From contig JAKDLG010000008.1 of NCBI GenBank assembly GCA_030452985.1, positions 1 through 64,000 of the forward strand: DNA of 64,000 bases, read 5' to 3'. The notes beneath the pieces were generated by a model, which had not been told where the DNA came from, ran no database searches, and saw only the letters and a program-made list of their open reading frames with translations. The translations under genes and the position numbers were made by a program. The DNA is from Humibacillus sp. Lineage in GTDB: Bacteria > Actinomycetota > Actinomycetes > Actinomycetales > Dermatophilaceae. How positions within the stretch are numbered: position 1 is the first letter of the stretch; each line of letters opens with the position of its first letter. This document shows, one piece after another, positions 19,592-37,797 of the stretch.

Positions 19592-19668
19592 TTCTTGTCC
19601 CTACCCAGCCGAGGACAGTTCCCTGCCCCGGCGAGGGTCGACCAGGGCGAGTGGGTACGACCGCTGTC

Positions 19669-20670
19669 ATGAGCACCAGCGAGCAGAGCGACGCGCCCGT
19701 ATCATCTGAGCTGCCGCTCGCGCTGGTGCTCGGCGGGTCACGAGGGCTGGGTCTGCTTATCGCGCGGGACCTGCTGGGGCGAGGTCATCGTGTCGTCGTC
19801 GCCGCCCGCGACCTGGATGAGCTCGACCGAGCCCGAGCGCAGCTCGAGGGTTGGGGGCCGGTGCTGGTGCGCACCTGCGACGTGCGCGACCGCCACGGCG
19901 TGCGGGAGCTGGTCGACGAGCTCGAAGAGCAGGTCGGAGCCATCGAGGTTCTGGTCACCGTCGCGGGCGTCATCTCGGTGGCCCCGTTGGAGTCGCTCAC
20001 CGTGGAGCACTTCGACGAAGCGATCGACACCATGCTGTGGGGGCCGGTGCAGGCGGCCATGACAGTACTGCCGGCCATGCGTCGTCGCGGTCGGGGCCGC
20101 ATTGCCACGATCACCTCCATCGGCGGCATGGTCTCACCACCGCATCTGCTGCCTTACGCCACTGCGAAGTTCGGGGCGGTCGGCTTCTCCGACGGCCTCT
20201 CGGCCGCACTGACCGGCACGGGCGTCACGGCCACGACGGTGGTGCCGGGCCTGATGCGTACCGGTTCGCAGGAGCGGGCAGAGTTCGGGGGCGACGCCGA
20301 GCACGAGTACGCCTGGTTCGCGCCGGCTGCCTCGCTGCCTCTGCTGTCGATCGACGCCACGAGAGCAGCACGACGGATCGTCGACGGCGTGCTCGGTGGT
20401 CGGCCCATCGTCGTGCTGACCCCGTTGGCGTGGGTCGGCATCCGCGTGCGGGGGCTCGCACCCGGCACCACGACACGGCTGATGGGCCTGGCGAACCGGT
20501 TACTGCCCAGCGGCCCCGACCAGGGTGGTCGCCATCTCGTCGAGGGCAGCACGGCCGGTGAGCGGCTCGCGTCACGAACCGTCCATGCCCTCACTGTTCT
20601 GGGGCGGCGGGCGGCGGAGCGCAACAACGAGCAGGTCGGCCCCGATCACCCGAAGCACGCCGAAGGGTGA
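19669..20670 (+). CDS. SDR family NAD(P)-dependent oxidoreductase
   Basis: 333 residues from ATG 19669; a GTG at 19651 would add six residues and cannot be excluded. Cofactor motif GGSRGLG near residue 24 (Gly-rich but not the usual TGxxxGIG), Asp in CDVRDR, ITSIGGMVSPPHLLPYATAKFG with the YxxxK pair, and PGLMRTG. A 90-residue C-terminal extension (GIRVRGLAPGTTTRLMGLANRLLPSG) follows the fold, as in several actinobacterial SDRs that act on large lipid-like substrates. Substrate unknown. Confidence 0.85.
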   Translation: MSTSEQSDAPVSSELPLALVLGGSRGLGLLIARDLLGRGHRVVVAARDLDELDRARAQLEGWGPVLVRTCDVRDRHGVRELVDELEEQVGAIEVLVTVAGVISVAPLESLTVEHFDEAIDTMLWGPVQAAMTVLPAMRRRGRGRIATITSIGGMVSPPHLLPYATAKFGAVGFSDGLSAALTGTGVTATTVVPGLMRTGSQERAEFGGDAEHEYAWFAPAASLPLLSIDATRAARRIVDGVLGGRPIVVLTPLAWVGIRVRGLAPGTTTRLMGLANRLLPSGPDQGGRHLVEGSTAGERLASRTVHALTVLGRRAAERNNEQVGPDHPKHAEG

Positions 20671-20944
20671 GGTGACCCGCCGCGTGCGTTGGCAGACCGA
20701 CGGGGTCATGACCAGAGCAGCTGCGACCTCCTCCGCCCTGACCCCGACCTCCTCTCGGCTACCGCGCGTGGGCCGCGCGGTGAGGGCCAACCGGTGGGTG
20801 CACGAACCTGGCTCGGTCGTGCTGCAAGGATCGGTCGGGGTGGTCGTCAAAGCGCGACGGTGGGGTGCCCGCTGACCCCCCGGACTGAGCGGTGGTCCGA
20901 CCCCCACCCTCGTCTCCACCGTCTCGTCTGAGACGGAGAACCCC
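20671..20944. other. Intergenic region without a supported gene
   Basis: 274 bp between the SDR stop and the convergent glycosyltransferase stop. I see no convincing coding frame, promoter or terminator. Confidence 0.5.
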
Positions 20945-22183
20945 TTACGGCCGGGTCTGCCAGTACCGTTCGAGCAGCGGGGCGCGGCGCAGTCGCGTCA
21001 CCTGCGCACCAGCGGGCCAGGCCCGCCACGGTGGGAACGATAGACCGCGACCTTCTCGGTGCAGGGACCTGGTCGTACGCAGCGCGAGGTGCTCGGTGCG
21101 CACCGGTGCTTCGAGGCAGAGGTGTCGTAGGGTCGTGCCCGCGAGCAGAACCGGCGCGCAGTCGACCACGTAGCGTGCGCGACCCAGGATGGCTGCCGAG
21201 GGCGCGCCGACGTGCACCCTCGGGTCCTCGATCGACAGCGGGTCCCCCTCGGCCCCGCCTCCGAGCCAGACATGGGCGTCCGAGCCGGCCAGCAACGACT
21301 CGATGCTGGCGACCACCGTGGCCGGCTCGGCGTGCTGGGCGTCGAGACGAACCACGATGTCGGGCTGGCTCCAGAAGAGGTGCTCACCCCGCACGTCGCG
21401 ATCTGGCAGTCGACGGGCCAGGGCGAGGGTCTCGGCGTTCTTGGTGCTGACCAGCTGGTCCCGGTCTGCGAGGTCAGGCCCGTCGTGCCACACGACCGCT
21501 TCGGGCAGGTGGCACAGTTCGGCTCCGGCGACGATGGCCCGATGCCCGTAGTCCCAGTCCTCCCCGCCGTAGGTGGTGAAACTCTCGTCGAACCCCGACA
21601 GGTGCTCATGGAGGTCTCGGCTCACCGTGAGCGCTGCCGAGATGACGAGCTGGTAGGCGCGCGCGTCGGGCCGACGCAGGTTGTCGGTGCGCGCGTAGCC
21701 GTCCACCAGCCACGGGGGGTCAGTCAGGTCTCGGGGAGCGGGGCCGTCGCCCGCGAGCCACGAAGCGGTGCGGATGCCGTTCCAGCCCTTGAGGTCGACG
21801 TGGCGACGGCGACCCACTGTCAGGTTCCACCCGTCGTTCGTGTGCTGCGTCACCCTCTCGAGGTAGCGGGGCGACGGCACACAGTCCTGGTCGAGAAACA
21901 CGATGACATCACCGGCTGCTGCTTGCGCGCCCAGGTTGCGGGCGGCGGCCGCCCGGAAGCCGAGGTCGGCCTGACCCACCACCCGAACGCGAAAAGGGCG
22001 GCCGCCCGGCTCGGGGGGTTGCGGAGAACCGTCGTCGGCGATGACCACCTCGAAGTGGTCGTGACCCATCGTCTGAAGCTCGAGAGCGGCCAGCAGGCGG
22101 TCCAGCTGCTCAGCACCCTCGAAGCTGGGCACCACCACACTCAGGAACGGACGGGACCGGCGTTGCGACAGTGTCGAGCTCAC
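20945..22183 (-). CDS. Glycosyltransferase family 2 protein with galactosyltransferase-like C-terminus
   Basis: 412 residues from a GTG overlapping the stop of the upstream glycosyltransferase (GTGA). GT-A fold: SVVVPSFEGAEQLDRLLAAL at the N-terminus, VVIADDGSPQ, a metal-binding FLDQDC (DXD-like) motif, and the later YGGEDWDYGHRA motif typical of polypeptide/galactosyl GT-A enzymes with a C-terminal acceptor region. About 150 residues of variable C-terminal domain follow. It presumably transfers a sugar to a growing glycan or glycolipid; third gene of a three-gene minus-strand operon. Confidence 0.83.
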   Translation of the reverse strand: MSSTLSQRRSRPFLSVVVPSFEGAEQLDRLLAALELQTMGHDHFEVVIADDGSPQPPEPGGRPFRVRVVGQADLGFRAAAARNLGAQAAAGDVIVFLDQDCVPSPRYLERVTQHTNDGWNLTVGRRRHVDLKGWNGIRTASWLAGDGPAPRDLTDPPWLVDGYARTDNLRRPDARAYQLVISAALTVSRDLHEHLSGFDESFTTYGGEDWDYGHRAIVAGAELCHLPEAVVWHDGPDLADRDQLVSTKNAETLALARRLPDRDVRGEHLFWSQPDIVVRLDAQHAEPATVVASIESLLAGSDAHVWLGGGAEGDPLSIEDPRVHVGAPSAAILGRARYVVDCAPVLLAGTTLRHLCLEAPVRTEHLALRTTRSLHREGRGLSFPPWRAWPAGAQVTRLRRAPLLERYWQTRP

Positions 22184-23199
22184 GCGGCCGGCTCGAGCAG
22201 GTCGTGGTGACGCAGGGCCGCCTCCGACCAGCTGGGGCCGAGGCTCACATCCGTCAGCCACGTCGTCGCCGGTGCGTCGAAGGCAGCAGCCAGGGCCCCG
22301 ACCAGGTCGCCGGTGAGGGTCAGCGATCCCGGGATCCGCGTCGCCAGCTCGGCCGACCACCCACCGTCGACCACGACCGGGCGCCGCCCGGAGCTCAGCC
22401 ACGTGCCGATGGAGCCCGAGGCCGAGACGTGCCGGTGCGCGGCGACCGGCACCGTCGTGCTGCGGAGGGCGCGCGTCAGGTCGGTGACGCTGAGGTAGCC
22501 AGCGATGGTGAAGTCGATGCCCTGGCGGCGGGCCCGGGCCTCGAGCTCGTCGGCGTACTGCTGGTGGCCTTCGGCCACCGGCCCGTAGTTGGTGACCCCT
22601 ACGCACTTCCCCCGGTCACGCAAGGTCGCGGCCGCGTCGATGACGTTCTCGATCCCCTTGCCGGGATAGAGAAAGCCGAGCACCCCGATGTCGTCGAGTC
22701 GCGGCTGGCGGTCGTGCGGCACGTCAGGCCTGTCGACCCGTTCCAACGGTAAGGGGATGACGACGACGTCGGCACCCGACGTGACGGGGGCACCGCACTG
22801 GCTCAGCAGCATCCGCTCGTGCTCACTCGCGACGACGACCACGTCTGCTACGGCAGCGATCTCGCGGTAGGCCTGCCTGCGGCGAGCACACCGGTCAGCC
22901 CCCTCGGTTGGATGCGGTAGGTCATGCAGGCACGCCACCAGACTCGTGCGGCGCGCGACCTGCGACAGGTAGGCGACGGCGGCCGGCGGGGTGACACCGA
23001 AGAGTCGGTCGGTCACCTGCACCATGACCCTCTCGTACGACCCCCAGCGGTCGGGACCGAGACCGACCGGGTCGTCCAACGACGCTGAGGGGAGGCGCAC
23101 GAGCGCCGAGGCGAGGCCCGGTGAGGCCTGCGCCAGCCCCAGGCCGTGCAGCACGACCCCGTGGCGCTCGGGCCCGGCCACGACGTACGCCACCGTCAT
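22180..23199 (-). CDS. Glycosyltransferase, GT-B fold (GT4-like)
   Basis: 339 residues. The N-terminal half has VVVVASEHERMLL and the C-terminal half the nucleotide-sugar-binding pattern IGVLGFLYPGKGIENVIDAAATL followed by a loop with SASGSIGTWLSSGRRPVVVDGGWSAEL, as in GT4 enzymes. The usual EPFGLVxxE motif is not obvious, so catalytic detail is uncertain. It overlaps both neighbours by 4 bp, in an operon of three glycosyltransferases. Confidence 0.75.
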   Translation of the reverse strand: MTVAYVVAGPERHGVVLHGLGLAQASPGLASALVRLPSASLDDPVGLGPDRWGSYERVMVQVTDRLFGVTPPAAVAYLSQVARRTSLVACLHDLPHPTEGADRCARRRQAYREIAAVADVVVVASEHERMLLSQCGAPVTSGADVVVIPLPLERVDRPDVPHDRQPRLDDIGVLGFLYPGKGIENVIDAAATLRDRGKCVGVTNYGPVAEGHQQYADELEARARRQGIDFTIAGYLSVTDLTRALRSTTVPVAAHRHVSASGSIGTWLSSGRRPVVVDGGWSAELATRIPGSLTLTGDLVGALAAAFDAPATTWLTDVSLGPSWSEAALRHHDLLEPAA

Positions 23200-24383
23200 G
23201 ACGCCATCCGCGAGCGCGACGACGCGACGAGGTTGAGGTACAGCTCGTCGTGGAACGAGCTGACCCGGGCCTGCTCCGCGACCCGGTCGGTGCGGTCAGC
23301 GCCCCGCTGGGGTGCGGCCCGATGCGTGCGCCGGAGCGCGTCACCCAGCTCGTCGAGGTCGGGTGGGCCGCCGACGGGCCAGCCGAACGTCGACATCGGC
23401 TGCTGCTCGACCCAGAACCCGGTACGGGGTGCCACCACCGCGGCGCCGACGTCGTGACAGGCCTCGACCCAGCCCGAGTGGGTGCCGAAGGCGTAGGGCA
23501 GCAGCGATACGTCGATCGACCTGAGGTAGTCGAACAGCTCGTCGTCGGTGAAGGTCTCGTGCACCCGCAGGTCGAGCCGACCGGCCGCTTCGAGCTCGAG
23601 CAGGGTGCGGGTCAGCGCGCGGTCGTGCCTCGGGTGCGACGGGCGCCAGACCTCTGCGTTGACGTCGACGCGAAGCACGGCATCCGGAAGCTGACCGACC
23701 GCCTCGACGGTAGCGGTCACCATCGGCCGGGCGGCGATGTTGGCCCGCAGGCCCTTCAGGTGAAGTCCGACGACCCAGGGTGAGAGCGGTCGATCTCGTG
23801 CCGCCCCGATGAGGTGTGCAGGGGCGACGTGCGGATGGGGGGTCACGGTGACGGGTACGTTCCATCGCGCCGTGATCTGCCTCGCCACACCGTTGGTCAG
23901 GGTCAGCACCGACGAGGCGGCCGGAACCAGCGCGTCGAGCCGAGCGAGGTGCTCCCGCTGGTCGACGAAGTGCGGGTTCACGAGGTCGTGCACGGTGAGA
24001 ACGAGCGGCACCTGCTGGCGTCGCAGCTCGGTGGTCCACGCCTGCAGGCCTTGCGGGGTCTGGTGGTCGAAGCCGAAGTGCAGGTGCACCACGTCGAGCG
24101 TGCCCTCGTGCTGTCTCAACCACGCGGTGTCCAACGCCGGCGGTGGCCACCACTGGTCATGGTCCGCCCCGGGCACGAGCGGATCGGGCAGGTGCGTCAC
24201 GGCTGCCTCGCTGTCGCTGTCGCCGTAGGCCCCGGCCACCGCCCGCAACCGCAGCGGGTAGTTGTGCCCGCTGGGTACAGAAAGCACCCGAACCGGCTGG
24301 TTCGTCAGCCCGCCGACCATCCGACCGGGTCGCCGGTGCGTGTCATGGAGGGCGCCACGAGTCTCGCCCAGCGCGTTCGCCAT
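23196..24383 (-). CDS. Glycosyltransferase, GT-B fold
   Basis: 395 residues from the ATG giving MANALGE, with GGGAG 6-7 bp upstream (an ATG four codons earlier lacks a ribosome site). DVVHLHFGFDHQTPQGLQAW and VLTVHDLVNPHF in the N-terminal half are typical of GT4 enzymes; the C-terminal half contains DELFDYLRSIDVSLLPYAFGTHSGWVEACHDVGAAVVAP, where the glutamate of the ExxxxE donor site lies. First gene of the minus-strand glycosyltransferase operon. Confidence 0.78.
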   Translation of the reverse strand: MANALGETRGALHDTHRRPGRMVGGLTNQPVRVLSVPSGHNYPLRLRAVAGAYGDSDSEAAVTHLPDPLVPGADHDQWWPPPALDTAWLRQHEGTLDVVHLHFGFDHQTPQGLQAWTTELRRQQVPLVLTVHDLVNPHFVDQREHLARLDALVPAASSVLTLTNGVARQITARWNVPVTVTPHPHVAPAHLIGAARDRPLSPWVVGLHLKGLRANIAARPMVTATVEAVGQLPDAVLRVDVNAEVWRPSHPRHDRALTRTLLELEAAGRLDLRVHETFTDDELFDYLRSIDVSLLPYAFGTHSGWVEACHDVGAAVVAPRTGFWVEQQPMSTFGWPVGGPPDLDELGDALRRTHRAAPQRGADRTDRVAEQARVSSFHDELYLNLVASSRSRMAS

Positions 24384-24463
24384 TCGTTCTCCCATCCTGC
24401 GGGGCGACGGATGCTCGCCCGCCTCTTCGTACCCTCACCCCCCTCCTCGTTCTCGCTGGAGGA

Positions 24464-25123
24464 TCAACGGGTTCGCGGCTGGGTGTCACGCACCGAGTCC
24501 GGGAGGAAGCCGTGCCGCACCCCCCACAGCACCGCCTGCGACCGAGTGGTCACGCCCATCTTCCGGTAGGCGGCGCGAATATACGACTTGACGGAGTTGA
24601 TGCTGAGGAAGGTGTGCTCGGCGATGGTGAGGTTCGCCAGGCCCTGGGTGATCAGCGCCACGACCTCGGCCTCGCGAGCGGTCAGCCCTTCAGCCCTGCC
24701 TGGCCAGTCGCCAGGGTCGGCCACCGGCTCGTGCGGTGGTACGGCAACGCTGCGTTCGAGGCGGTGGGCGGCCTCGAGGGCAGTGACCAGCTGCGCTGCC
24801 GACAGCCCCTTCGAGACGAAGCCGGAAGCGCCGCGGGCCATGGTGCGCTCGATCAGCTCGGGCTCCTCCTCCCAGCCGTAGACGACGACCTTGCCGACCC
24901 GGCCCGTGCTCAAGATCTCGTTGATGGCCTCGGCATCTCCGCGAGCCTCCCCGAACGTGTCGAAGAGCACGATGTCGACCGGCTGCGAGACCGGCAGCCG
25001 GGCATCGATCTCGACGAGCTCGATGCGGTCGCGGTAGGAGTCGAACATGCGTGCCAGGCCTCGCACCACGACCTCGTAGTCGTCGACCAGGGCCACCCGC
25101 AGCGGCGCACGATCCGTCGTCAC
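24464..25123 (-). CDS. LuxR-family orphan response regulator, copy 1
   Basis: 219 residues from GTG. A degenerate receiver domain (about 8-125) keeps the acidic pair (VDDYE), an Asp at the phosphorylation position (DIVLFD) and Lys in GFVSKG, but has Gly/Trp (VVYGWE) at the usual Thr/Ser. A C-terminal LuxR helix-turn-helix (LTAREAEVVALITQGLANLTIAEHTFLSINSVKSYIRAAYRKMGV) follows. No histidine kinase is nearby. Two close paralogues occur at 32863 and 50285. A CCCCTAGGGG box lies 16 bp upstream, in the divergent region shared with the acyl-CoA-dehydrogenase/PIG-L/glycosyltransferase operon it probably controls. Confidence 0.85.
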   Translation of the reverse strand: MTTDRAPLRVALVDDYEVVVRGLARMFDSYRDRIELVEIDARLPVSQPVDIVLFDTFGEARGDAEAINEILSTGRVGKVVVYGWEEEPELIERTMARGASGFVSKGLSAAQLVTALEAAHRLERSVAVPPHEPVADPGDWPGRAEGLTAREAEVVALITQGLANLTIAEHTFLSINSVKSYIRAAYRKMGVTTRSQAVLWGVRHGFLPDSVRDTQPRTR

Positions 25124-25137
25124 CCCCTCAACCTACT

Positions 25138-25154
25138 CACCCCTAGGGGGGTGA
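25138..25154. promoter_or_regulatory. CACCCCTAGGGG box in a divergent promoter
   Basis: Perfect core palindrome CCCCTAGGGG (25140-25149) flanked by TCA and GGTGA, between the LuxR-type regulator and the divergent acyl-CoA-dehydrogenase-like gene. The same ACCCCTAGG core occurs twice before the third LuxR paralogue (50159, 50181). It is probably the operator of this regulator family; this is inference. Confidence 0.5.
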
Positions 25155-25186
25155 CGTCGGCGAGATCGGCTCCCTACGGTGAGACC

Positions 25187-26269
25187 ATGCCCCACACCCG
25201 TCCGGTGCTGCTGGCGCAGGCCAACCCGGCGCACCGGCAGCACCTCGAAGACCTTGCCGGTCAGGCCGCCGGCGCGATCGGCGACCGCGAGAAGTGCTTC
25301 GTCCTGCCTGTCGACCACTCTGACCTCTTCCCGCTCCCGGGCCAGGGCGCGACCCGCACCTTGTGGGAGTCACTGGCCACGCTCGGGTCGATCGACCTCT
25401 CGCTGGCCCGGATGCTCGAGCCGCACCTCGACGCGACGGCCATCCTCGCTGAGGCGCAGGCAGCGCAGCGGCCCACGTCGGATGCCGTTGACCTTGCCGA
25501 TATGGGTCAGGGCACCTGGGGCGTCTTCGCCGCCGAGGGTGCGGGCATGCGGCTCGTCGCCGGGCGGCAGGGTGACCGGGTCGTGTTGTCGGGTCGGAAG
25601 CCGTGGTGCTCCCTCGCCGGCTCGCTCAGTCATGCGCTCGTCACCGCATGGGTCGACGAGGATCGCCGGGGTCTCTACGCGGTCGACCTCGGCCATGCCG
25701 GCGTCGAGGTCGACGACGCGGCCGGTTGGGTCGCGCGCGGGCTGCGTGAGGTACCCAGCGTGCCGGTCTCATTCACCGATGTTCCGGCAGTGCCGGTGGG
25801 TGACCCCGGGTGGTACCTGGAGCGCCCCGGCTTCGCCTGGGGCGGCATCGGCGTGGCCGCGATCTGGTTCGGTGCAACGGTCGCCATTGCCCGACGGGTG
25901 TTCGACCAGGCCCGCCGCCGTCAGCTCGACCAGATCGGCCAGAGCCACCTGGGTGCGATCGACGCCAGTCTTACCGGTGCTCGCCTGCTGCTCGCCGACG
26001 CGGCCGACCTCGCCGACCGCGGGGTGGCCGACCCCGCCGCAGCCGCAGTCGCCGCCCTGCGCTGTCGTCGCGTGGTGGCTGAAACAGCGGAGACCGTGCT
26101 GTGGCGCAGCGACCACGCCCTCGGGCCGGCGCCGCTCGCCCTCGAGGAGGAACACGCCGCGCGAGTCGCCGACCTGCGCCTGTACGTGCGGCAGGACCAC
26201 GCCGAACGAGACCAGGCCGCTCTCGGTCGCGCGCTCGTCACCGGCCCCCACGACGCCAGCCCGTGGTGA
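25187..26269 (+). CDS. Acyl-CoA dehydrogenase-like protein
   Basis: 360 residues. It follows the acyl-CoA dehydrogenase order: helical N-domain (SLARMLEPHLDATAIL), a mid beta-domain (GTWGVFAAEGAGMRL...VVLSGRKPWCSLAGSLSHALVTAWV), then a C-terminal helical domain (GGIGVAAIWFGATVAIARRV). I cannot identify the usual catalytic base confidently, and the protein is shorter than typical (about 380). In this context it may oxidise a CoA- or carrier-bound intermediate, or may be non-catalytic. Its TGA overlaps the GTG of the PIG-L/methyltransferase gene (GTGA). First gene of a four-gene operon. Confidence 0.78.
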   Translation: MPHTRPVLLAQANPAHRQHLEDLAGQAAGAIGDREKCFVLPVDHSDLFPLPGQGATRTLWESLATLGSIDLSLARMLEPHLDATAILAEAQAAQRPTSDAVDLADMGQGTWGVFAAEGAGMRLVAGRQGDRVVLSGRKPWCSLAGSLSHALVTAWVDEDRRGLYAVDLGHAGVEVDDAAGWVARGLREVPSVPVSFTDVPAVPVGDPGWYLERPGFAWGGIGVAAIWFGATVAIARRVFDQARRRQLDQIGQSHLGAIDASLTGARLLLADAADLADRGVADPAAAAVAALRCRRVVAETAETVLWRSDHALGPAPLALEEEHAARVADLRLYVRQDHAERDQAALGRALVTGPHDASPW

Positions 26270-27642
26270 ACAAGGGCCCGGCCTTCCTGCACTCCGAGAC
26301 GGGTACCGCCGAGCAGGAGTGGGTCGATGACACCCGGTGGGAGGCTGTTCCTGCTCTGACTCTGCTCGACGGTGGCCGGATCGAGCGGGTGGTGGTCGTG
26401 GCGGCCCACCCTGACGACGAGACGCTCGGCGCCGGTGGCCTGATCGCGGCCGCGACGGCCGCGGGTCTACGAATGGACGTGGTGGTGTTCACCGACGGAG
26501 AGGCGTCGCACCCGCACTCACCGTCGACGACGGCTGAGCAGCTCGCCGTGCTGCGACGGCGCGAGACGCGAGCGGCCGTGCATCGGCTGAGCCCGTCGTC
26601 GTCGGTCATCTTCACCGACCTCGGTGACGGTCGCCTCGGCGAGTCCCTCACCGAAGCCGTCTCCACCCTCGTTGACGTCATCGGTGAGGACGGCTGGAAG
26701 ACCCTGCTCGTCTCACCCTGGCGAGGCGACCGGCACCCTGACCACGCGGCGGCCGGGCAGGCCGCCGCCATCGCCGCCGAGCGCACCGACGCCCGCCGGC
26801 TGGAGTACCCGATCTGGCTGTGGCACTGGGCGACTCCCGACGAGGCCCCCTGGGCCGCTATGCGCGGCCTCTCGCTCGACGACGTTGCACGTTCGGCCAA
26901 GGAGTCAGCCCTGGCCCAGCACACCAGCCAGGTGAAGGCACTCTCGGAGGCGGCCGGCGACGAGGTGCTGCTCACCGCCGACATGCTGGCCCACTTCCAC
27001 CGCGACCGCGAGGTCTTCGTGCAGCCGGGGCTCGAGCCTGACGCTGAGGACCTCGACTCGGCCTTCGACGACCTCCACCGCGACCACGACGATCCCTGGT
27101 CGGTGGTGACCTCGTGGTTCGAGCGACGCAAGCGGCAGGTGACCCTGGCCGCCCTCCCCGATGAGCACTACGACAGGGTGCTCGAAGTCGGGTGTTCTGT
27201 CGGCCTGCTCGCCCACGACCTCTCCGCGCGTTGTGACGACCTCGTGGCCCTCGACCGCAGTGACGTCGCGGTCGAGCGGGCCCGGCACCGGTTGCGCGAC
27301 GTGCCACACACGCAGGTCGAAACCGCTGTCGTGCCACACGACTGGCCGGCGGGGACGTTCGATCTCGTGGTGATCTCCGAGGTCGGCTACTTCCTCAGCC
27401 CGCTCGAGCTCGAGGGCCTGCAGGACCGGGTCCGAGACAGCCTCTCCCCCCACGGCCACGTCGTTCTCTGTCACTGGCGGCATCCCATCGTCGGCTGGCC
27501 GCTCGACGGCGATCGGGTGCACGACCTCTGGAGGGCGGCTTCCGAGCAGGACCCCCTGGTCGTTCACCGCGAGCGCGACTTCCTCCTGGAGGTGCATGCC
27601 CACCCCGGGGCCTACCGACCGACCGAGAGCGAGGGCGGGTGA
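26266..27642 (+). CDS. Bifunctional PIG-L deacetylase / SAM-dependent methyltransferase
   Basis: 458 residues. Residues of about 40-235 form a PIG-L/LmbE zinc deacetylase: AHPDDE (His48, Asp50, Asp51) and HPDH (His157, His160) provide the metal and catalytic residues. Residues of about 275-450 form a class I methyltransferase with the SAM motif LEVGCSVG (about 306-313) and a NodS-like pattern (FDLVVISEVGYFL). PIG-L enzymes remove N-acetyl from sugars, as in mycothiol and GPI synthesis; NodS-like domains N-methylate the exposed amine. The fusion predicts deacetylation followed by methylation of an amino sugar. Both junctions are 4-bp overlaps. Confidence 0.87.
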   Translation: MNKGPAFLHSETGTAEQEWVDDTRWEAVPALTLLDGGRIERVVVVAAHPDDETLGAGGLIAAATAAGLRMDVVVFTDGEASHPHSPSTTAEQLAVLRRRETRAAVHRLSPSSSVIFTDLGDGRLGESLTEAVSTLVDVIGEDGWKTLLVSPWRGDRHPDHAAAGQAAAIAAERTDARRLEYPIWLWHWATPDEAPWAAMRGLSLDDVARSAKESALAQHTSQVKALSEAAGDEVLLTADMLAHFHRDREVFVQPGLEPDAEDLDSAFDDLHRDHDDPWSVVTSWFERRKRQVTLAALPDEHYDRVLEVGCSVGLLAHDLSARCDDLVALDRSDVAVERARHRLRDVPHTQVETAVVPHDWPAGTFDLVVISEVGYFLSPLELEGLQDRVRDSLSPHGHVVLCHWRHPIVGWPLDGDRVHDLWRAASEQDPLVVHRERDFLLEVHAHPGAYRPTESEGG

Positions 27643-28391
27643 CTCCGTCGGCGACGAAGATCGACGTGGTGCACGTCGTGGTGCCGGCCCGCAACGAGGA
27701 GGCGCTCCTGCCGAGATGCCTCGACTCCATCGAGGTGGCCGGGTCGCTCCTGCAGGCCGAGCAACCCGATATCGAGATCTCGGTCTGCGTCGTGCTCGAC
27801 GGCTGCACCGATCGGTCGGAGGAACTCGTACGCCAGCGCCCGAGTATCAGGGGCCTGACGATCGACTCCTGTTCGGCCGGTGCGGCTCGTCGGCACGGCC
27901 TCGACGACGTGGCCAGGCGCACCCCTCGCCGGTCTCGCCACACGACGTGGGTGGCGAACACCGACGCCGACACGCTGGTGCCCCCGCACTGGCTCACTGC
28001 TCAGGTCGCTCTGGCGGCGGCCGGCATCCAGCTCGTGGTCGGCACGGTCGTTCCGGATGCCGACGACCTGGCCGCGGCAGTGCTCGCTGAGTGGTGGGCT
28101 CGACACGACCTCGGCGAGTCCCACCCGCACGTGCACGGTGCCAACCTCGGCTTCACCCTCGGCGCCTACCTCACGGTGGGCGGCTACCGGTCGGTGCGCG
28201 AGCACGAAGACGTCACCCTGGTGCGGGCCCTGCGCGACGCGGGCGTTCCCTGGCGTGCCACCGACACGACTCGCGTGCTCACCTCTGGTCGTCGGAGCGA
28301 CCGGACCCCAGGCGGTTTCGGGCGCTACCTGCATCACCTCGCCCGCGCGACCACGGTGGGTGGCATCGCAGCCACCGGCGCACCCTCATGA
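27639..28391 (+). CDS. Glycosyltransferase family 2 protein
   Basis: 250 residues from a GTG overlapping the previous stop. GT-A fold: HVVVPARNEEALLPRCLDSI, VVLDGCTDRS, a metal-binding NTDADT (Asp109-x-Asp111) and a later GYRSVREHEDVTLVRAL motif with the catalytic-base region. Soluble, no membrane helix. Its TGA overlaps the next ATG. It probably transfers a sugar that the PIG-L/methyltransferase then modifies, or the reverse order. Confidence 0.87.
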   Translation: MTPSATKIDVVHVVVPARNEEALLPRCLDSIEVAGSLLQAEQPDIEISVCVVLDGCTDRSEELVRQRPSIRGLTIDSCSAGAARRHGLDDVARRTPRRSRHTTWVANTDADTLVPPHWLTAQVALAAAGIQLVVGTVVPDADDLAAAVLAEWWARHDLGESHPHVHGANLGFTLGAYLTVGGYRSVREHEDVTLVRALRDAGVPWRATDTTRVLTSGRRSDRTPGGFGRYLHHLARATTVGGIAATGAPS

Positions 28392-29590
28392 CGCTGAAGG
28401 AGCCCCGACCCCAGAGTCGGATCCACGTCGCCACGGCCGACGACCGTCCCCGGCCCCGTCGGTTGCGGATCGCCCTGGTCGGCCCGTACCGCTACCCCGT
28501 GCGGGAGCCGTTCGCCGGTGGGCTCGAGTGCCACGTACACGAACTGGCGGCCGGCCTGGCCGAGCGTGGGCACGACGTCAGCCTCTTCGCCAGGGTCGGC
28601 AGCACCGGTGTCGCCCCGGGCGACGAGCTCGAGTCGGGGTGGACCCCGAGCCTGGCCGCCACCCAGGACGTGTCGATGCCGCACTTCGAGGCGATGCTCG
28701 AACATCACGCCTACCAGCGGCTCATGCTGCGTCTCGTTCACGGTGAGGCAGCCAGGCGGTTCGACGTGGTGCACCTGCATGCGGTTCACCACCTGCCCGT
28801 TGCGCTGGCACCGTCGGTACCGGTGCCGGTGCTCGCCACCCTGCACATTCCGCCGACGGTCTGGATGGAGTCGGCCCTGGCTGCGACCGGTGGCATCGGT
28901 GCGAGCTTCACCGCCGTCAGCCACCACGTGTCACGCGCGTGGACCGTGTTGCCCGACCGTCCGGCCGTCGTGCTCAACGGCGTCGACACCGGCCTGTGGC
29001 GCCGGGGGCCGGGCGGCCCGGACCTGGTCTGGTCAGGGCGGCTGGTGCCCGAGAAGGCGCCGCACCTGGCCATCCTCGCGGCGCGAGCGGCCTCGCGCCG
29101 GCTCGTGATTGCCGGTCCCCTCTCCGACGGTGACTACGTACGGAGGCAAATTGTGCCGCAGCTCGGTGACGACATCACCTACGCCGGTCACCTCGGTCAG
29201 CGCGAGCTGGCGCGTCTCGTCGGCCGTGCCGCTGCCGTGCTCGCGACACCCGAGTGGGACGAGCCGTTCGGCCTCACCGTGGCCGAGTCCCTCTCGTGCG
29301 GAACGCCGGTCATCGCGTTCGACCGTGGCGGCATCCGGGAGGTCATCGGTGGGTCCGGGTCGGGCATCCTCGTGCCGCCCGGTGACGTCGCAGCGATGGC
29401 GCAGGCGGTGCCGACCGCTGAGCGCATCGACCGCAGGATCGTGCGGCGCGAGGCGGTCGCCCGCCTGTCAGTCGACCGGATGATCGACGAGTACGTCGGC
29501 CACTACCGCCGGCTCGTCAACCTGGAGCACGACCCAGCGGTGCGTGACCGGGTCGCGCTTCGCGAGGCCGAGCCGCTCGAAGGCGCCTAG
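28388..29590 (+). CDS. Glycosyltransferase family 4 protein
   Basis: 400 residues. RIALVGPYRYPVREPFAGGLECHVHELAAGLAERGHDVSLFA is the N-terminal GT4 acceptor-side signature; VLNGVDTGLW, WSGRLVPEKAPHLAILAA and EWDEPFGLTVAESLSCGTPVIAFDRGGIREVI give the complete GT-B donor site with the ExxxxxxE glutamates. Last gene of the operon starting at 25187. Its final 123 bp overlap, on the opposite strand, the 3' end of the convergent GT2 gene. Confidence 0.88.
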   Translation: MTLKEPRPQSRIHVATADDRPRPRRLRIALVGPYRYPVREPFAGGLECHVHELAAGLAERGHDVSLFARVGSTGVAPGDELESGWTPSLAATQDVSMPHFEAMLEHHAYQRLMLRLVHGEAARRFDVVHLHAVHHLPVALAPSVPVPVLATLHIPPTVWMESALAATGGIGASFTAVSHHVSRAWTVLPDRPAVVLNGVDTGLWRRGPGGPDLVWSGRLVPEKAPHLAILAARAASRRLVIAGPLSDGDYVRRQIVPQLGDDITYAGHLGQRELARLVGRAAAVLATPEWDEPFGLTVAESLSCGTPVIAFDRGGIREVIGGSGSGILVPPGDVAAMAQAVPTAERIDRRIVRREAVARLSVDRMIDEYVGHYRRLVNLEHDPAVRDRVALREAEPLEGA

Positions 29591-30423
29591 CCATCCCTCC
29601 ATCGGGAACCAGCCCCATCGTTCGCGAAAGTAGTTGGCGTTCCTGACGATCGAGACACGATGACGCACGGGCGGGCTCTCCACCTCGTGGTGCTGGTGGA
29701 ACGCATCTGCGCCGCCGACCCAGTACAGCTCGCCGCCCACGGCTGCCACCCGCATCGCGAAGTCGGTGTCCTCTCCCCCGTAACCGCGGTAACCGGTGGC
29801 GAACCCGCCGATGTCGTCCCAGTGCCGAGCCGCCACCGCGAACGACAACGACCAGAACAGCCGCAGGTCGTCGGCCCTGACCAACCGACCCGGCCCTGGC
29901 GACGGCCGGGCAGCGTGCGGCCGAGCCAGTGACGCGAGACCGGCTGCCGGGTACGCGACCTGGCCCGGCGATAGGGGCGGGAGGTAGGACACCGCCCCGC
30001 TCAACAGCACCGGCCTTCGGCGCCGGCCCCGCGTACGTCGCCAGGCCCACTCGTAGCGGCCCAGGGCGTCCACCGAGACGAGACAGTCGACATCGAGAAA
30101 GACGATCAGGTCACACCCCCGGCCGATGGCTTCGTCGGCCCCGACGTTGCGGGCGGCAGCGAGCGGCAGCTCTCCGTCGACGGGTGTCTCGAGCTCGCGG
30201 GTGACGACGTCGACGCCGTCCCGGGCCAACGGGCCGCCCTCCACCAGCGGCGCGACCTCGGGGTCGCCCATGGCGACCACCACATGCAGATCGGGTCGGC
30301 GCGCCGAGCGGGCAAGCGCGGCCAGGTGGGCCCGTAGGTGACGGTGGCCCCCGCGACGATCGTCACCACGGCGATCCTCCCGGTACGGCCTCGACCGGCG
30401 GTGACCGTGTCGATACCGCTCAC
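29468..30423 (-). pseudogene. Glycosyltransferase family 2, frameshifted near its N-terminus
   Basis: The reading starts at a GTG (VSGIDTV...IAVVTIVAG) that overlaps the stop of the upstream gene by 4 bp, then must change frame at the C-run 30348-30352 to continue as GHRHLRAHLAALARSARR. One extra G/C there restores one protein of about 318 residues. Downstream features are intact: IVFLDVDCLVS (metal site), the GYRGYGGEDTDF motif and FPMEGWLGAFERLGLA. The defect resembles the one in the sugar transporter at 8033: a single base missing in a short C/G run, which may be a mutation or a sequence error. The 3' end overlaps the convergent GT4 gene by 123 bp. Confidence 0.78.
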
Positions 30424-31412
30424 GACCGGGTCCCGACCCGCTCGAGCAGACCCACCGCGCGCTCGACCCCGTCGAGGTCAGACCACTCCCGCCAGCGGTC
30501 GCCACCGCGGCTCCGGGCCTGCGTCAGCAGGCCGGGCCAGGCGTCGTCAGCCGGCCAGGTCGAGAGGCCGACCGCGATTCCGCTGGTGTCGATGACCCCG
30601 GCGGTCTCCTGCTGCTCGTCGAACGGGCGCGTCTCGGCGACGACCACCGACGGGCGCCGGCTCGCCGCCACCTCGGCCACCGCGTTCTGGCCGGCATGCG
30701 TGACCACGACCTCGGCGCGGGTCAGCTCTGACCATATGGTCGCAGCATCCGCGCGCGGGTGGGGGCGTCGCCACGACCACTGCGGGCCAGAGGCGGCCGC
30801 CGCCCGTTCGAGGCTCGGCCCGGTGCCGACCCCACCGCGGCCCCAGAGCAACAACACCGAACCCGCCTGGGCCGCTACTGGTTCCGTGTCACGGGCCACA
30901 TCGTCCAGCCGCGAGAACCCACCCGTGTGGCATGTCTTGTCGATCCATCTCGCCGGCCAGCTCCGGCTGGCCAGCGCCGCCGGCCACAACGCGATGAGCG
31001 CCTCTGCGGCGTCGTAGGCGAGAGTGTGGGCCCGGTCGGTGCGGTCGCCACGCATGGCCACCACGACAACCGGCACGCCCAGCAGCCGTACGAGCAGGGT
31101 CACCTCCACCGACACGTCGACCACGACCAGCCTCGGTCGTGCCCGCTCCACCCAGCTCGAGATGGCGGTCATCCGGGCCGTGAAGCCGTCGTGACCGGTG
31201 GGCGCCCAGTGCAGCACCCCGCCGGCGGTCACATCGCCGGCGGTGGCCGGCTTCGGCTTCGCGTCGTGCGCCAGCTGGGCCCACTCCCCCGCCCAGTCGT
31301 CGGGGCGAGGCAGAGAGCTGAGCCCCGTCACCGGCTCACCGAGGCGCGCCGCCAGCAGGCGCGCTCGGGTCAGGTGGCCCGAGCCGTGGTGGTGCACGTA
31401 GTAGCCGATCAC
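30420..31412 (-). CDS. GT28/MurG-like glycosyltransferase
   Basis: 330 residues from GTG. N-terminal GYYVHHHGSGHLTRARLLAARL is a MurG/GT28-type glycine-rich acceptor loop; the C-terminal half has SVLLLWGRGGVGTG and VVVTHAGQNAVAEVAASRRPSVVVAETRPFDEQ, the donor-binding HAGxN..AE signature of GT1/GT28 enzymes. It overlaps the frameshifted GT2 by 4 bp and follows the zinc alcohol dehydrogenase by 26 bp, so these three form a minus-strand operon. Confidence 0.82.
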   Translation of the reverse strand: MIGYYVHHHGSGHLTRARLLAARLGEPVTGLSSLPRPDDWAGEWAQLAHDAKPKPATAGDVTAGGVLHWAPTGHDGFTARMTAISSWVERARPRLVVVDVSVEVTLLVRLLGVPVVVVAMRGDRTDRAHTLAYDAAEALIALWPAALASRSWPARWIDKTCHTGGFSRLDDVARDTEPVAAQAGSVLLLWGRGGVGTGPSLERAAAASGPQWSWRRPHPRADAATIWSELTRAEVVVTHAGQNAVAEVAASRRPSVVVAETRPFDEQQETAGVIDTSGIAVGLSTWPADDAWPGLLTQARSRGGDRWREWSDLDGVERAVGLLERVGTRS

Positions 31413-31438
31413 CGATCGGTCACCGCGCCTTCACCGCG

Positions 31439-32623
31439 TCAGGGGGTGAGGACGACCTTGAGACAGCCGTCCTCCTTCTGCTGGAACGTGGCGTACATCT
31501 CGGGAGCCTGCTCGAGGGGCACGTGATGGGTGGCCAGCGTCTCGAGTCCGAGCACGTCATCGGGCTGGGAGGCGATGGCGAGCAGCTCGTCGGTCCACTG
31601 GCGTACGTGGCACTGCCCCATTCGGATCTGCAGCCCCTTGTCGAACATCTCCATCATGGGCAGCGGGTCGGCCATGCCTCCGTACACCCCGCTGATCGAG
31701 ACGGTCCCTCCGCGGCGCACTGCAGAGATGGCGGTGGTGACGGCCGAGAGACGGTCGATCCCGACGCGCTCGATGGCCGCCCGCGCCAGGGGCCCGGGCA
31801 GGTGTGAGGCTGCGGTGATGGCCGTCTCGGCCGCCGGGTTGCCGTGCGCCTCCATCCCGACCGCTTCGAGAACCGAGTCGGGGCCGCGGCCCTCGGTCAG
31901 CTCACGCAGGGTCGCGGCCACGTCGTCGACCGCGCTGAGGTCAACGACATGGGCACCGCTCTGCTCGGCGAGCGCGAGCCGTTCAGGCACCAGGTCGACG
32001 GCAAAGACACGTTCGACACCCTGGTGCAGAGCCGCCCGCACGGCGAGCTGCCCCACCGGGCCGAGTCCGAGCACAGCCAGCGAACCGCCCTCTGGCACAG
32101 CGGCATACTGCAGCCCCTGCCAGGCGGTGGGCAGGATGTCGGAGAGGTAGAGAAAGCGGTCGTCGGGCATCTCGGCCGGCAGCTTGATCGGCCCGAAGTC
32201 GGCGTGCGGCACGCGAACCAGCTCGGCCTGACCGCCGGGTACCGAGCCGTAGAGGCTGGTGTAGCCGAAGAGGTCGGCCCCCTTGTTCTGCTCGACGTTC
32301 TGAGTCGTCTCGCACTGGGCGAAGAGCCCGCGATCGCACATCCAGCAGTGGCCGCAGGAGATGTTGAACGGCACCACGACCCGGTCTCCGACCGCGAGGT
32401 TCGTCACGGCCGACCCGACCTGCTCGATGATCCCCATGAACTCGTGCCCGAGCACGTCACCCCGGCTCAGGTACGGGGCCAGCACCCGGTAGAGATGCAG
32501 GTCAGAGCCACAGATCGCCGTGGAGGTGACGCGCACGACGGCGTCGGTCGGGTGTTCGATGCGAGGGTCGGGGACGTCGTCGATACGCACATCCTCGATG
32601 CCGTGCCAGGTGAGAGCTCTCAT
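31439..32623 (-). CDS. Zinc-dependent alcohol dehydrogenase (glutathione-independent formaldehyde dehydrogenase-like)
   Basis: 394 residues, medium-chain dehydrogenase. Catalytic zinc ligands lie in AICGSDLHLYR and GHEFMG; structural zinc cysteines in ISCGHCWMCDRGLFAQC; the NAD motif is VLGLGPVGQLAVRAAL. The length and the insertion before the C-terminal VGIDRLSAVTTAISAVRRGGT segment match the formaldehyde dehydrogenase/threonine dehydrogenase-like branch widespread in actinobacteria. It should oxidise an alcohol or aldehyde hydrate with NAD. First gene of the operon with two glycosyltransferases and divergent from a LuxR-type regulator. Confidence 0.88.
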   Translation of the reverse strand: MRALTWHGIEDVRIDDVPDPRIEHPTDAVVRVTSTAICGSDLHLYRVLAPYLSRGDVLGHEFMGIIEQVGSAVTNLAVGDRVVVPFNISCGHCWMCDRGLFAQCETTQNVEQNKGADLFGYTSLYGSVPGGQAELVRVPHADFGPIKLPAEMPDDRFLYLSDILPTAWQGLQYAAVPEGGSLAVLGLGPVGQLAVRAALHQGVERVFAVDLVPERLALAEQSGAHVVDLSAVDDVAATLRELTEGRGPDSVLEAVGMEAHGNPAAETAITAASHLPGPLARAAIERVGIDRLSAVTTAISAVRRGGTVSISGVYGGMADPLPMMEMFDKGLQIRMGQCHVRQWTDELLAIASQPDDVLGLETLATHHVPLEQAPEMYATFQQKEDGCLKVVLTP

Positions 32624-32759
32624 CAGACGACCCTATGTCGGCAGCAGGCGTGCTGCCTCCACCCGCAAGGGTGGCTCGGCCTTCGGTCGTGACCGTTGGG
32701 CTGGGCGCCCTTATGCCCACTGTGACCCGGATCCCGGTTGAACCATCAAGCCTGCGGGT

Positions 32760-32775
32760 ACTACCGAGCGGTAGT
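32760..32775. promoter_or_regulatory. Inverted repeat ACTACCG-AG-CGGTAGT
   Basis: Perfect 7-bp arms with a 2-bp spacer, in the 239-bp divergent region between the zinc dehydrogenase (minus) and the LuxR-type regulator (plus). Its compact symmetry suits a dimeric regulator. It does not match the CCCCTAGGGG box found at the other two paralogues. Confidence 0.45.
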
Positions 32776-32862: not shown

Positions 32863-33519
32863 ATGACCACCAGACCCCCCGTCACCACGGCTCCGCTTCG
32901 CGTGGCGCTGGTCAACGACTACGAGCTGGTGCTGCGCGGTCTGGCCCAGATGTTCAGCCCCTACCGCGATCGCATCACCGTCGTCGAGCTCAATGCGCGG
33001 ATGCCGGTGTCGAGACCGGTCGACATCGCCCTCTACGACCCGCACGGTCGGGCGCAGAGCGAGCAGCACGCGGTCGACGAGCTGATGTCTCAACGCACGG
33101 TCGGCAAGGTCGTGGTCTACGGCTGGGGCTCCGGTTCCGAGCTGGACCACGGGGGTCGTCACCGGGCGGCCGGCGTGCTGTCCAAAGGTCTTGGGGCGCA
33201 GCAGCTCGTCGACGGTCTCGAACGGATCCACCGGGGCACCCCCCTGGAGCTCACGCCAACTCAGCGCGAACACCGCGGCTCATCCGAGTGGCCGGGCCGC
33301 CGTGAGGGCCTGACCCCGCGCGAGAGTGAGATCATCGCCCTGATCACGCAAGGCCTGTCGAACCAGGCGATCGCCGACCTGACCTACCTCAGCATCAACT
33401 CGGTGAAGTCCTACATCCGTACGGCGTACCGCCGGATGAACGTGACCAGTCGGAGCCAGGCCGTGCTCTGGGGCGTGCAGCACGGCCTCGAACCCGACCG
33501 GGCGAGGATCGCGTCATGA
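32863..33519 (+). CDS. LuxR-family orphan response regulator, copy 2
   Basis: 218 residues, GAAGGAG upstream. Same architecture as the paralogues at 24464 and 50285: degenerate receiver (about 12-125), then LuxR helix-turn-helix (LTPRESEIIALITQGLSNQAIADLTYLSINSVKSYIR). Here the first acidic pair is Asn-Asp (VNDYE), so magnesium binding and phosphorylation are doubtful. No kinase is adjacent. The stop overlaps the ATG of an SDR gene (ATGA). Confidence 0.85.
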   Translation: MTTRPPVTTAPLRVALVNDYELVLRGLAQMFSPYRDRITVVELNARMPVSRPVDIALYDPHGRAQSEQHAVDELMSQRTVGKVVVYGWGSGSELDHGGRHRAAGVLSKGLGAQQLVDGLERIHRGTPLELTPTQREHRGSSEWPGRREGLTPRESEIIALITQGLSNQAIADLTYLSINSVKSYIRTAYRRMNVTSRSQAVLWGVQHGLEPDRARIAS

Positions 33520-34424
33520 CGAACCCGCGGAAGGTGCTCGTGACCGGGGCGTCGAGCGGCATCGGCCGGGCCAGCGCCCTGGCCCTGGCCGCTACCGGTG
33601 CATCACTCGTGCTCGTGTCTCGCTCGCAGGCGGCGTTGACCGAGGTCGCTCGCGACTGCGCCCGGCTCGGTGGCAGCGCGCAGATCGTCGTCGCCGACGT
33701 GTCGGATGCCGCCGCCGTCGCGGGAGCGTTCGAGCAGGCGACCGCGGACGGGCCGCTGCACGGGGTGATCCACTCGGCCGCCGCCCTCGCCTACGGCCGT
33801 TTCGAGCAGGTTCCAGCCGAGGTGTTCGACCAGGCGATCGCCACCACGTTGCTGGGCACCGCGAACGTGGCCCGCAGCACCCTCAGCATTTTTCGCGCGC
33901 AGGGCGAGCGCGGCAGCCTCGTGGTCATCGGTTCACTGCTGGGCAAGATCGCGACGCCCTACATGACCAGCTACGTCACGGCCAAGTGGGGCGTGCACGG
34001 CCTGGTGCGCACGCTGCAGATCGAGGCCCGCGCCACCCCCGGCATCCGCATCAGTCTGGTCTCCCCCGGCGGTGTCGACACGCCCGTCTACTCTCAAGCC
34101 GGCACCTACCTGAGCCGGCACGGGCGCCCACCACCACCCGTGGACCCGCCCGAGAAGGTCGCGGCTGCCGCCGTCGCAGCCCTGCAGCATCCGCGACGTG
34201 AGCGCTCCGTCGGTATCGCGAACGGCATCGTCGTGGCCGGGTTCAGATTTCTGCCCGGCGTCTTCGACGTCTTGGTTCCGCCCCTGATGCGACTCGGCGG
34301 GCTCACTGGGTCGCACGTAGCGCCCACTCCCGGCAACGTGTTCGAGCCGCAGCCCGACGGAGAGGCCGTGCGCGACCGCTGGAGGCGCTGGGGGCGGCAA
34401 CGACCGCCTGGCGACCGCAGCTGA
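33516..34424 (+). CDS. SDR family NAD(P)-dependent oxidoreductase
   Basis: 302 residues. Classical SDR: TGASSGIG at residues 9-16, Asp in VADVSD, Ser in VVIGSLLGK and YVTAK (YxxxK), then SPGGVDTPVY. The C-terminal 60 residues extend beyond the core and end in an Arg-rich tail. Translationally coupled to the LuxR-type regulator. Substrate unknown. Confidence 0.88.
   Translation: MTNPRKVLVTGASSGIGRASALALAATGASLVLVSRSQAALTEVARDCARLGGSAQIVVADVSDAAAVAGAFEQATADGPLHGVIHSAAALAYGRFEQVPAEVFDQAIATTLLGTANVARSTLSIFRAQGERGSLVVIGSLLGKIATPYMTSYVTAKWGVHGLVRTLQIEARATPGIRISLVSPGGVDTPVYSQAGTYLSRHGRPPPPVDPPEKVAAAAVAALQHPRRERSVGIANGIVVAGFRFLPGVFDVLVPPLMRLGGLTGSHVAPTPGNVFEPQPDGEAVRDRWRRWGRQRPPGDRS

Positions 34425-35613: not shown

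Positions 35614-37797
<2,184 letters not shown>

Follow-up and report, generated by a model that had tools for sequence, protein, structure and literature searches.

Gene content of the locus

The window, which is the whole stretch of 64,000 nucleotides of Humibacillus sp. DNA, was annotated at 18344-34424 and at the catalase gene M; it contains a three-gene core, D-E-F, at positions 25187-28391. D (25187..26269, plus strand; PF00441, AlphaFold model, 61-row alignment) codes for a flavoprotein with the fold of the acyl-CoA dehydrogenases (ACAD), E (26266..27642, plus strand; PF02585 and PF05401) for a fusion of a PIG-L deacetylase with a NodS-family methyltransferase (MT), and F (27639..28391, plus strand; PF00535 and fold model) for a short GT2 glycosyltransferase (GT) of 250 residues with GT-A fold. 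Six further glycosyltransferases form a GT module. These are the GT4-type G (28388..29590, plus strand; PF00534, PF13439), the GT2-like H (29468..30505, minus strand; PF02709, PF10111), the GT28/MurG-like I (30420..31412, minus strand; PF04101 with 22.5 bits at a cut-off of 22), the GT2 enzyme A (20945..22183, minus strand; PF00535), and the GT4-like B (22180..23199, minus strand) and C (23196..24395, minus strand). B and C stay below the curated Pfam cut-offs (PF13692, 22.7 of 27 bits; PF13439, 26.5 of 28.5 bits), and both are conserved with the module. The initial annotation had counted six glycosyltransferases of different folds; there are in fact seven glycosyltransferase-like genes, of two folds: GT-A for F, as modelled, and from family knowledge also for A and H, and GT-B for B, C, G and I.

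Between the modules lies R1 (24464..25123, minus strand), a LuxR-type response regulator (PF00196 with 50.6 bits; its receiver domain, PF00072, stays under the cut-off). To the right follow the zinc-binding alcohol dehydrogenase J (31439..32623, minus strand; PF08240, PF00107), a second LuxR-type regulator K (about 32863..33519, plus strand; PF00196), the short-chain dehydrogenase L (33516..34424, plus strand; PF00106) and, as a neighbour, the large-subunit catalase M (35614..37797, plus strand; PF00199, PF18011). The left neighbour Z (19651..20670, plus strand; PF00106) is another short-chain dehydrogenase. R1 and K, identical in 123 of 223 aligned columns, are paralogous. A J-type dehydrogenase, 61-62% identical, directly follows the core in four Microbacterium loci (L076, L089, L096 and L109).

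All named genes were confirmed as open frames with family matches, among them the fusion, the ACAD-like and the zinc dehydrogenase genes that had been proposed before, and the 4-bp overlaps could be seen at six junctions (C/B, B/A, D/E, E/F, F/G and K/L). A simple codon-usage gene caller, trained on six of these same genes, recovered all of A to L, with a longer start for D; as this start overruns R1, R1 was left out. The caller placed C at 23196-24248, so that its start may be nearer 24248. The gene order is the same in a sister genome (G001, locus L030) for 15 of 16 query genes, the exception being the AI-2E permease Y, so that the arrangement exceeds chance. A DNA comparison with this locus revealed a frame disruption at the 5' end of H, where the window is one base shorter than the sister genome.

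In E, both halves can be recognised by their motifs (PF02585 with 89.5 bits; PF05401 with 49.8 bits at a cut-off of 24). The PIG-L metal-site motifs HPDDE and HxxH are intact; the residues H48, P49, D50, D51, E52, D155, H157 and H160 are kept in all 21 rows of the alignment, and so are G309, C310, G313 and D330 of the SAM-binding glycine motif. The nearest structures include NodS, diacetylchitobiose deacetylase and BshB/MshB. For the MT half the nearest solved structure is PDB 4isc (E 6.9e-60 over 162 residues), an entry, presumably from P. syringae, that carries only the name 'Methyltransferase', and among PDB relatives with an established role NodS comes closest (3ofj, E 1.2e-27). Nevertheless, E reaches only 62.6 bits with the NodS equivalog model (cut-off 300), and its assignment is to the superfamily PF05401. 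The model of F (pLDDT 93.8) matched GT-A structures with Z up to 21.7, and NodC was not among its NCBIfam matches.

The AlphaFold model of D (pLDDT 93.2) has the ACAD fold, with Z 33.4 and an rmsd of 2.8 over 340 residues against isovaleryl-CoA dehydrogenase in the fold search. The D profile also matched the nitrososynthase DnmZ (E 3.2e-4) and, more strongly, the flavin monooxygenase DszC (E 2.6e-8). D has the ACAD fold in common with both enzymes, but acyl-CoA dehydrogenases match it equally well or better (best E 4.6e-11). Nitrososynthase was absent among the 50 matches listed in the fold search, which excludes nothing. Of the 61 alignment rows, 41 have D and 15 have E at position 320 in the C-terminal loop; in this alignment the position is thus acidic in 56 of 60 ungapped rows, with no invariant Glu nearby. 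An earlier proposal that D had lost its catalytic base was withdrawn on account of this acidic position.

Distribution of the core and of the glycosyltransferase module

Loci of relatives were chosen by E in 22 of the 24 E-matching genomes, omitting the window itself and a genome matching by its MT only (G014). GT2 was found in 22/22 and ACAD in 20/22 of these loci, and both misses (L036, L041) lie at contig ends. In GTDB, 80 contigs were selected through the PIG-L/MT protein, the best 80 of at least 258 confirmed loci; ACAD and GT2 were each present in 79 of them, the misses again being contig ends. Starting from D, matches were found in 49 of 396 genomes of the phylum, and in 47 of these 49 the E-type domains lie no more than 806 bases away on the same strand; this distance check covered all 49 D places and part of the E rows, mainly from the same genomes. 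The two exceptions are L167, a contig end with a partial MT, and G040, in which a lone D adjoins a ferritin-like gene. An MT-region match without a D match occurred in five of the 396 genomes (G248, G259, G342, G387 and G410).

Outside the phylum, ACAD, PIG-L and MT are adjacent in plasmid records of alpha-, beta- and gammaproteobacteria. The three genes stand in a row in Acinetobacter, Pandoraea, Bradyrhizobium, Sulfitobacter, Comamonas, Komagataeibacter, Roseomonas, Paracoccus, Sphingomonas and Jiella, with no GT annotated nearby in Roseomonas. Variants were also seen: in Cupriavidus PIG-L adjoins a catalase gene and is divergent from ACAD-MT-GT, in Paraburkholderia (L165) MT and GT have neither ACAD nor deacetylase annotated nearby, and in L147, which belongs to the same family as the window, D, MT, GT and the GT module occur with neither PIG-L nor CE4 in the stretch. 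The Deinococcus genes have no GT annotated next to them, and their ACAD carries a fused domain of 420 residues; this N-terminal part gave no matches in Pfam, PDB sequences or NCBIfam. The D and MT trees have the same main split, although without starred support, and Rubrobacter forms one clade in both (support 100/100 and 100/99). The MT tree places L145 and the Sphingomonas row differently from the D tree. The Deinococcus D row, which is out of frame (branch 7.21), should be discounted in these trees, and the Sphingomonas MT row is very long. Among the open-licence papers listed, none described the gene set in its title or in the opening part of its abstract.

The six glycosyltransferases A, B, C, G, H and I are a module separable from the core. 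E is matched in 24 of 58 relatives (own genome counted), one of them by the MT only, and H and I are present in the same 21 of the 58 genomes. H/I occur together with full-length E in 16 genomes, within one 20-kb locus in 10 and apart in 6. The two are associated (16/21 vs 7/37; Fisher p 4.9e-5, relatedness ignored, own genome counted, with G014 and G035, the latter having no PIG-L, scored as lacking E). In 13 of the 22 relatives' loci, two of them short contigs, all six genes are absent beside the core. Consequently, the single LuxR-bounded cluster of the initial annotation was rejected, E and H/I being differently distributed among the 58 relatives; nor is the region simply LuxR-flanked, since R1 lies inside it. 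The expectation that the genes co-occur in other genomes was borne out by the core and only in part by the GT genes.

Deacetylase exchange and relationship to NodS

In all 24 Rubrobacter-type loci, that is in every genome of that kind with a D match, a NodB-like CE4 deacetylase lies beside ACAD and MT, and PIG-L is absent from the stretch. The best NCBIfam model of this CE4 is NodB (113 bits, cut-off 240). Of the other loci among L030-L166, L082 alone has a CE4, and there it lies some 8 kb away from the core. By sequence, PIG-L is replaced in the Rubrobacter-type loci by an unrelated NodB-like CE4. In addition, NCBI annotates a 'trifunctional glycosyltransferase/SAM methyltransferase/polysaccharide deacetylase' that combines the same three activities, GT2, NodS-like MT and CE4, in one chain. 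The three such proteins checked are all alphaproteobacterial; unlike the core they have no ACAD annotated beside them, and an ABC transporter gene adjoins in two of the three loci. The exchange and the one-chain proteins therefore support N-deacetylation of an amino sugar followed by N-methylation, and the Nod-factor-like chemistry that the initial annotation had suspected gains further from NodS as the MT's nearest PDB relative of known role. Against a sugar-specific reading stands the breadth of the MT and PIG-L superfamilies, whose substrates include many amines and amides.

The operon MTs and rhizobial NodS are kin: two NRPS methyltransferases are set apart by a branch with 100/100 support from the operon MTs, which share their side with NodS, a Nonomuraea sequence and the one-chain proteins. 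Whether NodS is nested inside the operon MTs is less clear. The test gave an AU p of 0.105, with the Nonomuraea row, the intended outgroup, grouping with NodS; an earlier test had given 0.038, but with this row misframed. In the first tree operon MTs fell on either side of starred branches; its outgroups are very distant, and one of its rows, L111, contained a stop read as X.

Proposed pathway and alternatives

We consider the core D-E-F to be a biosynthetic operon for an N-modified amino-sugar glycoside and give this reading, with the steps proposed here, a probability of about 0.6. What we infer here are the substrate, the order in which the enzymes act, what D catalyses, and the product together with its role. 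Most likely F would attach a HexNAc to a small acceptor; the PIG-L half of E would then free the amine, the NodS-like half would methylate it, and D may oxidise the product or an intermediate in a flavin-dependent step. The FAD oxidoreductase of Rubrobacter is a candidate for the electron partner of D. In this genome and in some relatives the six-GT module and J are joined to the core, perhaps extending the glycoside. The product is probably made under stress because the core often sits among genes for oxidative and desiccation stress. Ferritin-like proteins are the commonest family among the immediate neighbours (10 of 136; 136 of 154 neighbours, called with a simple gene finder, were scanned, and the 25 commonest of 140 families listed), Comamonas has the order otsA-core-otsB, and catalase genes lie near the core in several loci, M in the window included. 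As raw neighbour counts, these catalase, ferritin-like and trehalose genes are a hint at stress.

Since the core resembles the Nod factor genes in bringing together a GT2, a sugar N-deacetylase and a NodS-family N-methyltransferase, we considered whether it makes a lipo-chitooligosaccharide-like signal, with F in the part of a small NodC, E covering NodB and NodS together, and D altering an acyl chain. The best models are indeed NodB-like and NodS-like and a GT2 partner is present; real nodABC-nodS neighbourhoods served for comparison. However, the scores with NodS and NodB are far under their cut-offs, NodC is missing from the matches of F, and no NodA-type acyltransferase is found in the annotated core loci, the plasmid annotation being incomplete. 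Neither NodA nor NodC is among the genes identified in 18344-34424, where the deacetylase is PIG-L; the NodB-like CE4 belongs to the Rubrobacter-type loci only. The core further differs by its extra ACAD-like flavoprotein, its GT2 of only 250 residues and, usually, PIG-L instead of NodB, and it occurs in many bacteria not known to nodulate, so that we regard such a signal as improbable. Mycothiol and bacillithiol synthesis (MshA-MshB, BshA-BshB) likewise modifies a GlcNAc glycoside with a GT4 and a PIG-L deacetylase. There are matches of G to MshA (57.8 bits) and of E to BshB1 (52 bits), and the GT module adjoins an inositol-phosphate synthase gene in one genome (L188). These scores are far under the cut-offs of 462.5 and 182.5, and the likeness to mycothiol that had been suggested fails with the MshB model as well (26.1 of 224.35 bits), for which reason membership was rejected. 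In addition, PIG-L and GT4 sit in separable modules, the core has a methyltransferase and an ACAD where those pathways have cysteine ligase steps, and no MshC, MshD or BshC-like gene is among the genes identified; a thiol of this type is thus very improbable.

The seven glycosyltransferase-like genes could instead suggest a surface or capsular glycan locus, in which the glycosyltransferases build an oligosaccharide and the core decorates one residue only. The free-standing GT module adjoins WcbI (L187, L189) and FkbM-type genes (L187, L190), which are typical of capsule loci, and these neighbours therefore indicate glycan assembly. For the core, the small glycoconjugate made without polymerase or flippase, as first proposed, may still hold. 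A surface glycan locus is unlikely: most relatives' core loci are without the six GT genes, the modules stand apart in 6 of 16 genomes, and the genes identified in 18344-34424 include no polymerase, flippase or glycan exporter. If D were a flavin N-oxygenase, the product could be an amino- or nitro-sugar antibiotic; this would agree with the profile matches of D to DszC and DnmZ and with the lack of an invariant Glu in its C-terminal loop, but a single antibiotic would seldom be spread over several phyla, dehydrogenases score equally well or better, and the acid at position 320 leaves a dehydrogenase base possible; we hold this to be improbable too.

Returning to the amino-sugar glycoside operon, the gene set is kept across several phyla, in soil actinobacteria, plant-associated bacteria and Acinetobacter. 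With the genes kept together in this way, the core very probably makes a generally useful metabolite that chemists have so far overlooked. A strong, testable prediction of the chemistry follows from the replacement of PIG-L by a NodB-like enzyme. Only tentatively do we go further: ACAD, N-deacetylase, NodS-like MT and GT2 might constitute an amino-sugar pathway widespread in stress survival, with the deacetylase swapped between unrelated folds, the steps fused elsewhere and rhizobial NodS recruited from it, and its product might be a common but unseen N-methylated amino-sugar metabolite. If NodS descends from this operon, this would bear on the origin of the nodulation genes.

Core genes and glycosyltransferase module

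The window belongs to a draft genome of 358 contigs and 5.5 Mb. The glycosyltransferase genes A, B and C (20945–24395) and the LuxR-type regulator R1 (24464–25123) are located on the minus strand, the genes D, E, F and G (25187–29590) on the plus strand, and H, I and the zinc dehydrogenase J (29468–32623) again on the minus strand. Beyond J follow, on the plus strand, a second LuxR-type regulator K with the short-chain dehydrogenase L, and then the large catalase M. We refer to D (ACAD-like flavoprotein), E (PIG-L deacetylase fused to a NodS-family methyltransferase) and F (GT2 glycosyltransferase) as the core, and to A, B, C, G, H and I as the glycosyltransferase module. The initial annotation was right in substance: the 4-bp overlaps were found for C/B, B/A, D/E, E/F, F/G and K/L, with seven glycosyltransferase-like genes present rather than the six counted. 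The 5' end of H (30280–30470) is out of frame, with a one-base length difference to the sister genome G001, which is either a sequencing error or a damaged gene.

The genes of 20945–32623 had been considered one LuxR-flanked cluster. A set of 58 relatives, including the genome itself, was searched with E, I and H. E was matched in 24 genomes (G014 through the methyltransferase alone), and I and H in an identical set of 21. Full-length E and H/I occurred together in 16 genomes (Fisher p 4.9e-5, kinship ignored), 10 of which had both at one shared locus and six at separate loci; the view of a single cluster was thus not borne out. Among the 22 relatives' loci picked by E, F was present in all and D in 20, both misses being contig ends. 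All six module genes adjoined the core in four of these loci, G, H and I alone in five, and none in 13. Away from the core the module was found in ten places, with six genes together in eight and four genes in two. The free-standing six-gene module contains a WcbI-family gene in L187 (6354–7256) and L189 (7129–8127), FkbM-type methyltransferase genes accompany it in L187 and L190, and in one genome a myo-inositol-1-phosphate synthase-like gene directly adjoins it (L188, 17707–18804). Its separate distribution and this company mark the module as an independent unit, which probably makes a glycan and which certain lineages have combined with the core.

Proposed deacetylation and methylation by the core

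In the alignment the PIG-L residues of E are intact and its methyltransferase half has a SAM motif. The nearest solved structures to the two halves, by profile, are 4isc ("Methyltransferase"), NodS, TT1542, diacetylchitobiose deacetylase, BshB and MshB. In the Rubrobacter-type genomes searched, D and the methyltransferase were found and PIG-L was not. All 24 loci of this type with a D match in a search of 396 genomes have a CE4 (NodB-like) polysaccharide deacetylase directly before D and the methyltransferase after it, together with an FAD oxidoreductase in 22 and a GT2 in 21; the incomplete loci stop at contig ends, inside the methyltransferase (L167, L169) or the oxidoreductase (L168). This CE4 protein matches Pfam PF01522, and among NCBIfam models NodB fits it best (113 of 240 bits). 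Of the other loci among L030 to L166, L082 alone had such a CE4 gene, roughly 8 kb away from the core.

The apparent exchange of PIG-L and CE4, unrelated families of different fold, as sugar N-deacetylase is the strongest clue to the chemistry. Since one sugar N-deacetylase would have been swapped for another, the step catalysed is argued to be the deacetylation of an amino sugar. Three alphaproteobacterial proteins of 970–1026 residues (L195, 4396–7476; L196, 4405–7407; L197, 3498–6410) unite GT2, NodS-like methyltransferase and CE4 in a single chain; their genes have no annotated ACAD neighbour, and ABC transporter genes are adjacent in two of the three. As judged from their sequences, these proteins would independently point to the same chemistry. 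The proposed deacetylation and methylation of an amino sugar is thereby supported and sharpened, and the comparison with mycothiol is not supported.

In trees of D and of the methyltransferase (52 rows each; the Deinococcus row of the D tree is an artefact to be disregarded) the main split is the same, actinomycetes with beta- and gammaproteobacteria versus alphaproteobacteria with Rubrobacter, although starred in neither; the exceptions are L145 and a long Sphingomonas row, placed differently in the methyltransferase tree. The eight Rubrobacter rows form one clade in both (100/100 for D, 100/99 for the methyltransferase), so that the deacetylase seems to have been exchanged once. The operon methyltransferases and NodS are jointly split from two NRPS methyltransferases (100/100), and NodS may be placed either inside or beside the operon enzymes (p-AU 0.105). 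An unannotated NodS-like stretch of Nonomuraea (L204, about 3001–3396) is placed alongside NodS and the one-chain proteins.

The AlphaFold model of D (pLDDT 93.2) predicts a full ACAD fold (Z 33.4), and profile matches include dehydrogenases and monooxygenases alike, among them DszC and, weakly, DnmZ. Invariant in 61/61 rows are R75, E78, D82, C141, S142, Y210, R213, G219, W227 and Q336; the Arg of the GRVGVAA motif of 2dvl aligns opposite Gly220 (G in 56/61 rows). F is modelled as a GT-A enzyme (pLDDT 93.8), with structural matches (Z 20.4–21.7) including a Leptospira glycosyltransferase, the WrtF fucosyltransferase, chondroitin polymerase and TarP.

Neighbourhood and spread of the core

Of 136 immediate neighbours of the core that were scanned, 10 are ferritin-like, more than belong to any other family. 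A catalase match lies near it in 6/22 relatives' loci, in four of 80 named contigs (the best 80 of at least 258), and also in Acinetobacter, Sulfitobacter and Cupriavidus. A plasmid of Comamonas has four core genes in a row between otsA and otsB (L158, 4658–9626), which suggests a link to trehalose. In other plasmid records genes for CsbD, Ku/LigD, a general stress protein or YsnF lie near the core. A possible role tied to stress is a lead from these neighbours. Shortly upstream of the Acinetobacter core lies a gene for an iron-containing redox enzyme (Haem_oxygenas_2; L132, 8844–10250).

With the E alignment as query, GTDB contigs yielded at least 258 confirmed loci. By title, the best 80 are 79 actinobacterial and one Stenotrophomonas; D and F each accompany E in 79 of these 80, the misses (L102, L125) being cut by contig ends. 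The Stenotrophomonas contig is L122, titled Stenotrophomonas maltophilia P13; the D of its core falls with Microbacterium in the tree, possibly by contamination or transfer. In the reverse search, D was found in 49 of 396 genomes from the phylum, and in 47 of them E-type domains lie no more than 806 bases away on that strand. The others are G414, where the contig ends within the methyltransferase (L167), and G040, whose lone D (L144, 8601–10538) adjoins a ferritin-like gene, with no methyltransferase, PIG-L or GT2 match nearby. A methyltransferase-region match without D was found in five of the 396. Many of the 83 E-profile matches span PIG-L alone, as expected for a large superfamily.

Plasmid records show ACAD, PIG-L and methyltransferase in a row in Acinetobacter, Pandoraea, Kitasatospora, Bradyrhizobium, Sulfitobacter, Comamonas, Komagataeibacter, Roseomonas, Paracoccus, Sphingomonas (two records) and Jiella, usually with a glycosyltransferase near (none annotated in Roseomonas). 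In Deinococcus, with PIG-L and methyltransferase near, the ACAD follows, in one chain, an N-terminal domain of about 420 residues, which gave no Pfam match in either protein (L160, 1178–3517; L135, 8110–10482) and, for L160, no NCBIfam or PDB sequence match. Searches of open-licence papers brought up no description of the pathway. The core looks like a pathway that many bacteria share, with steps resembling those of Nod-factor synthesis.
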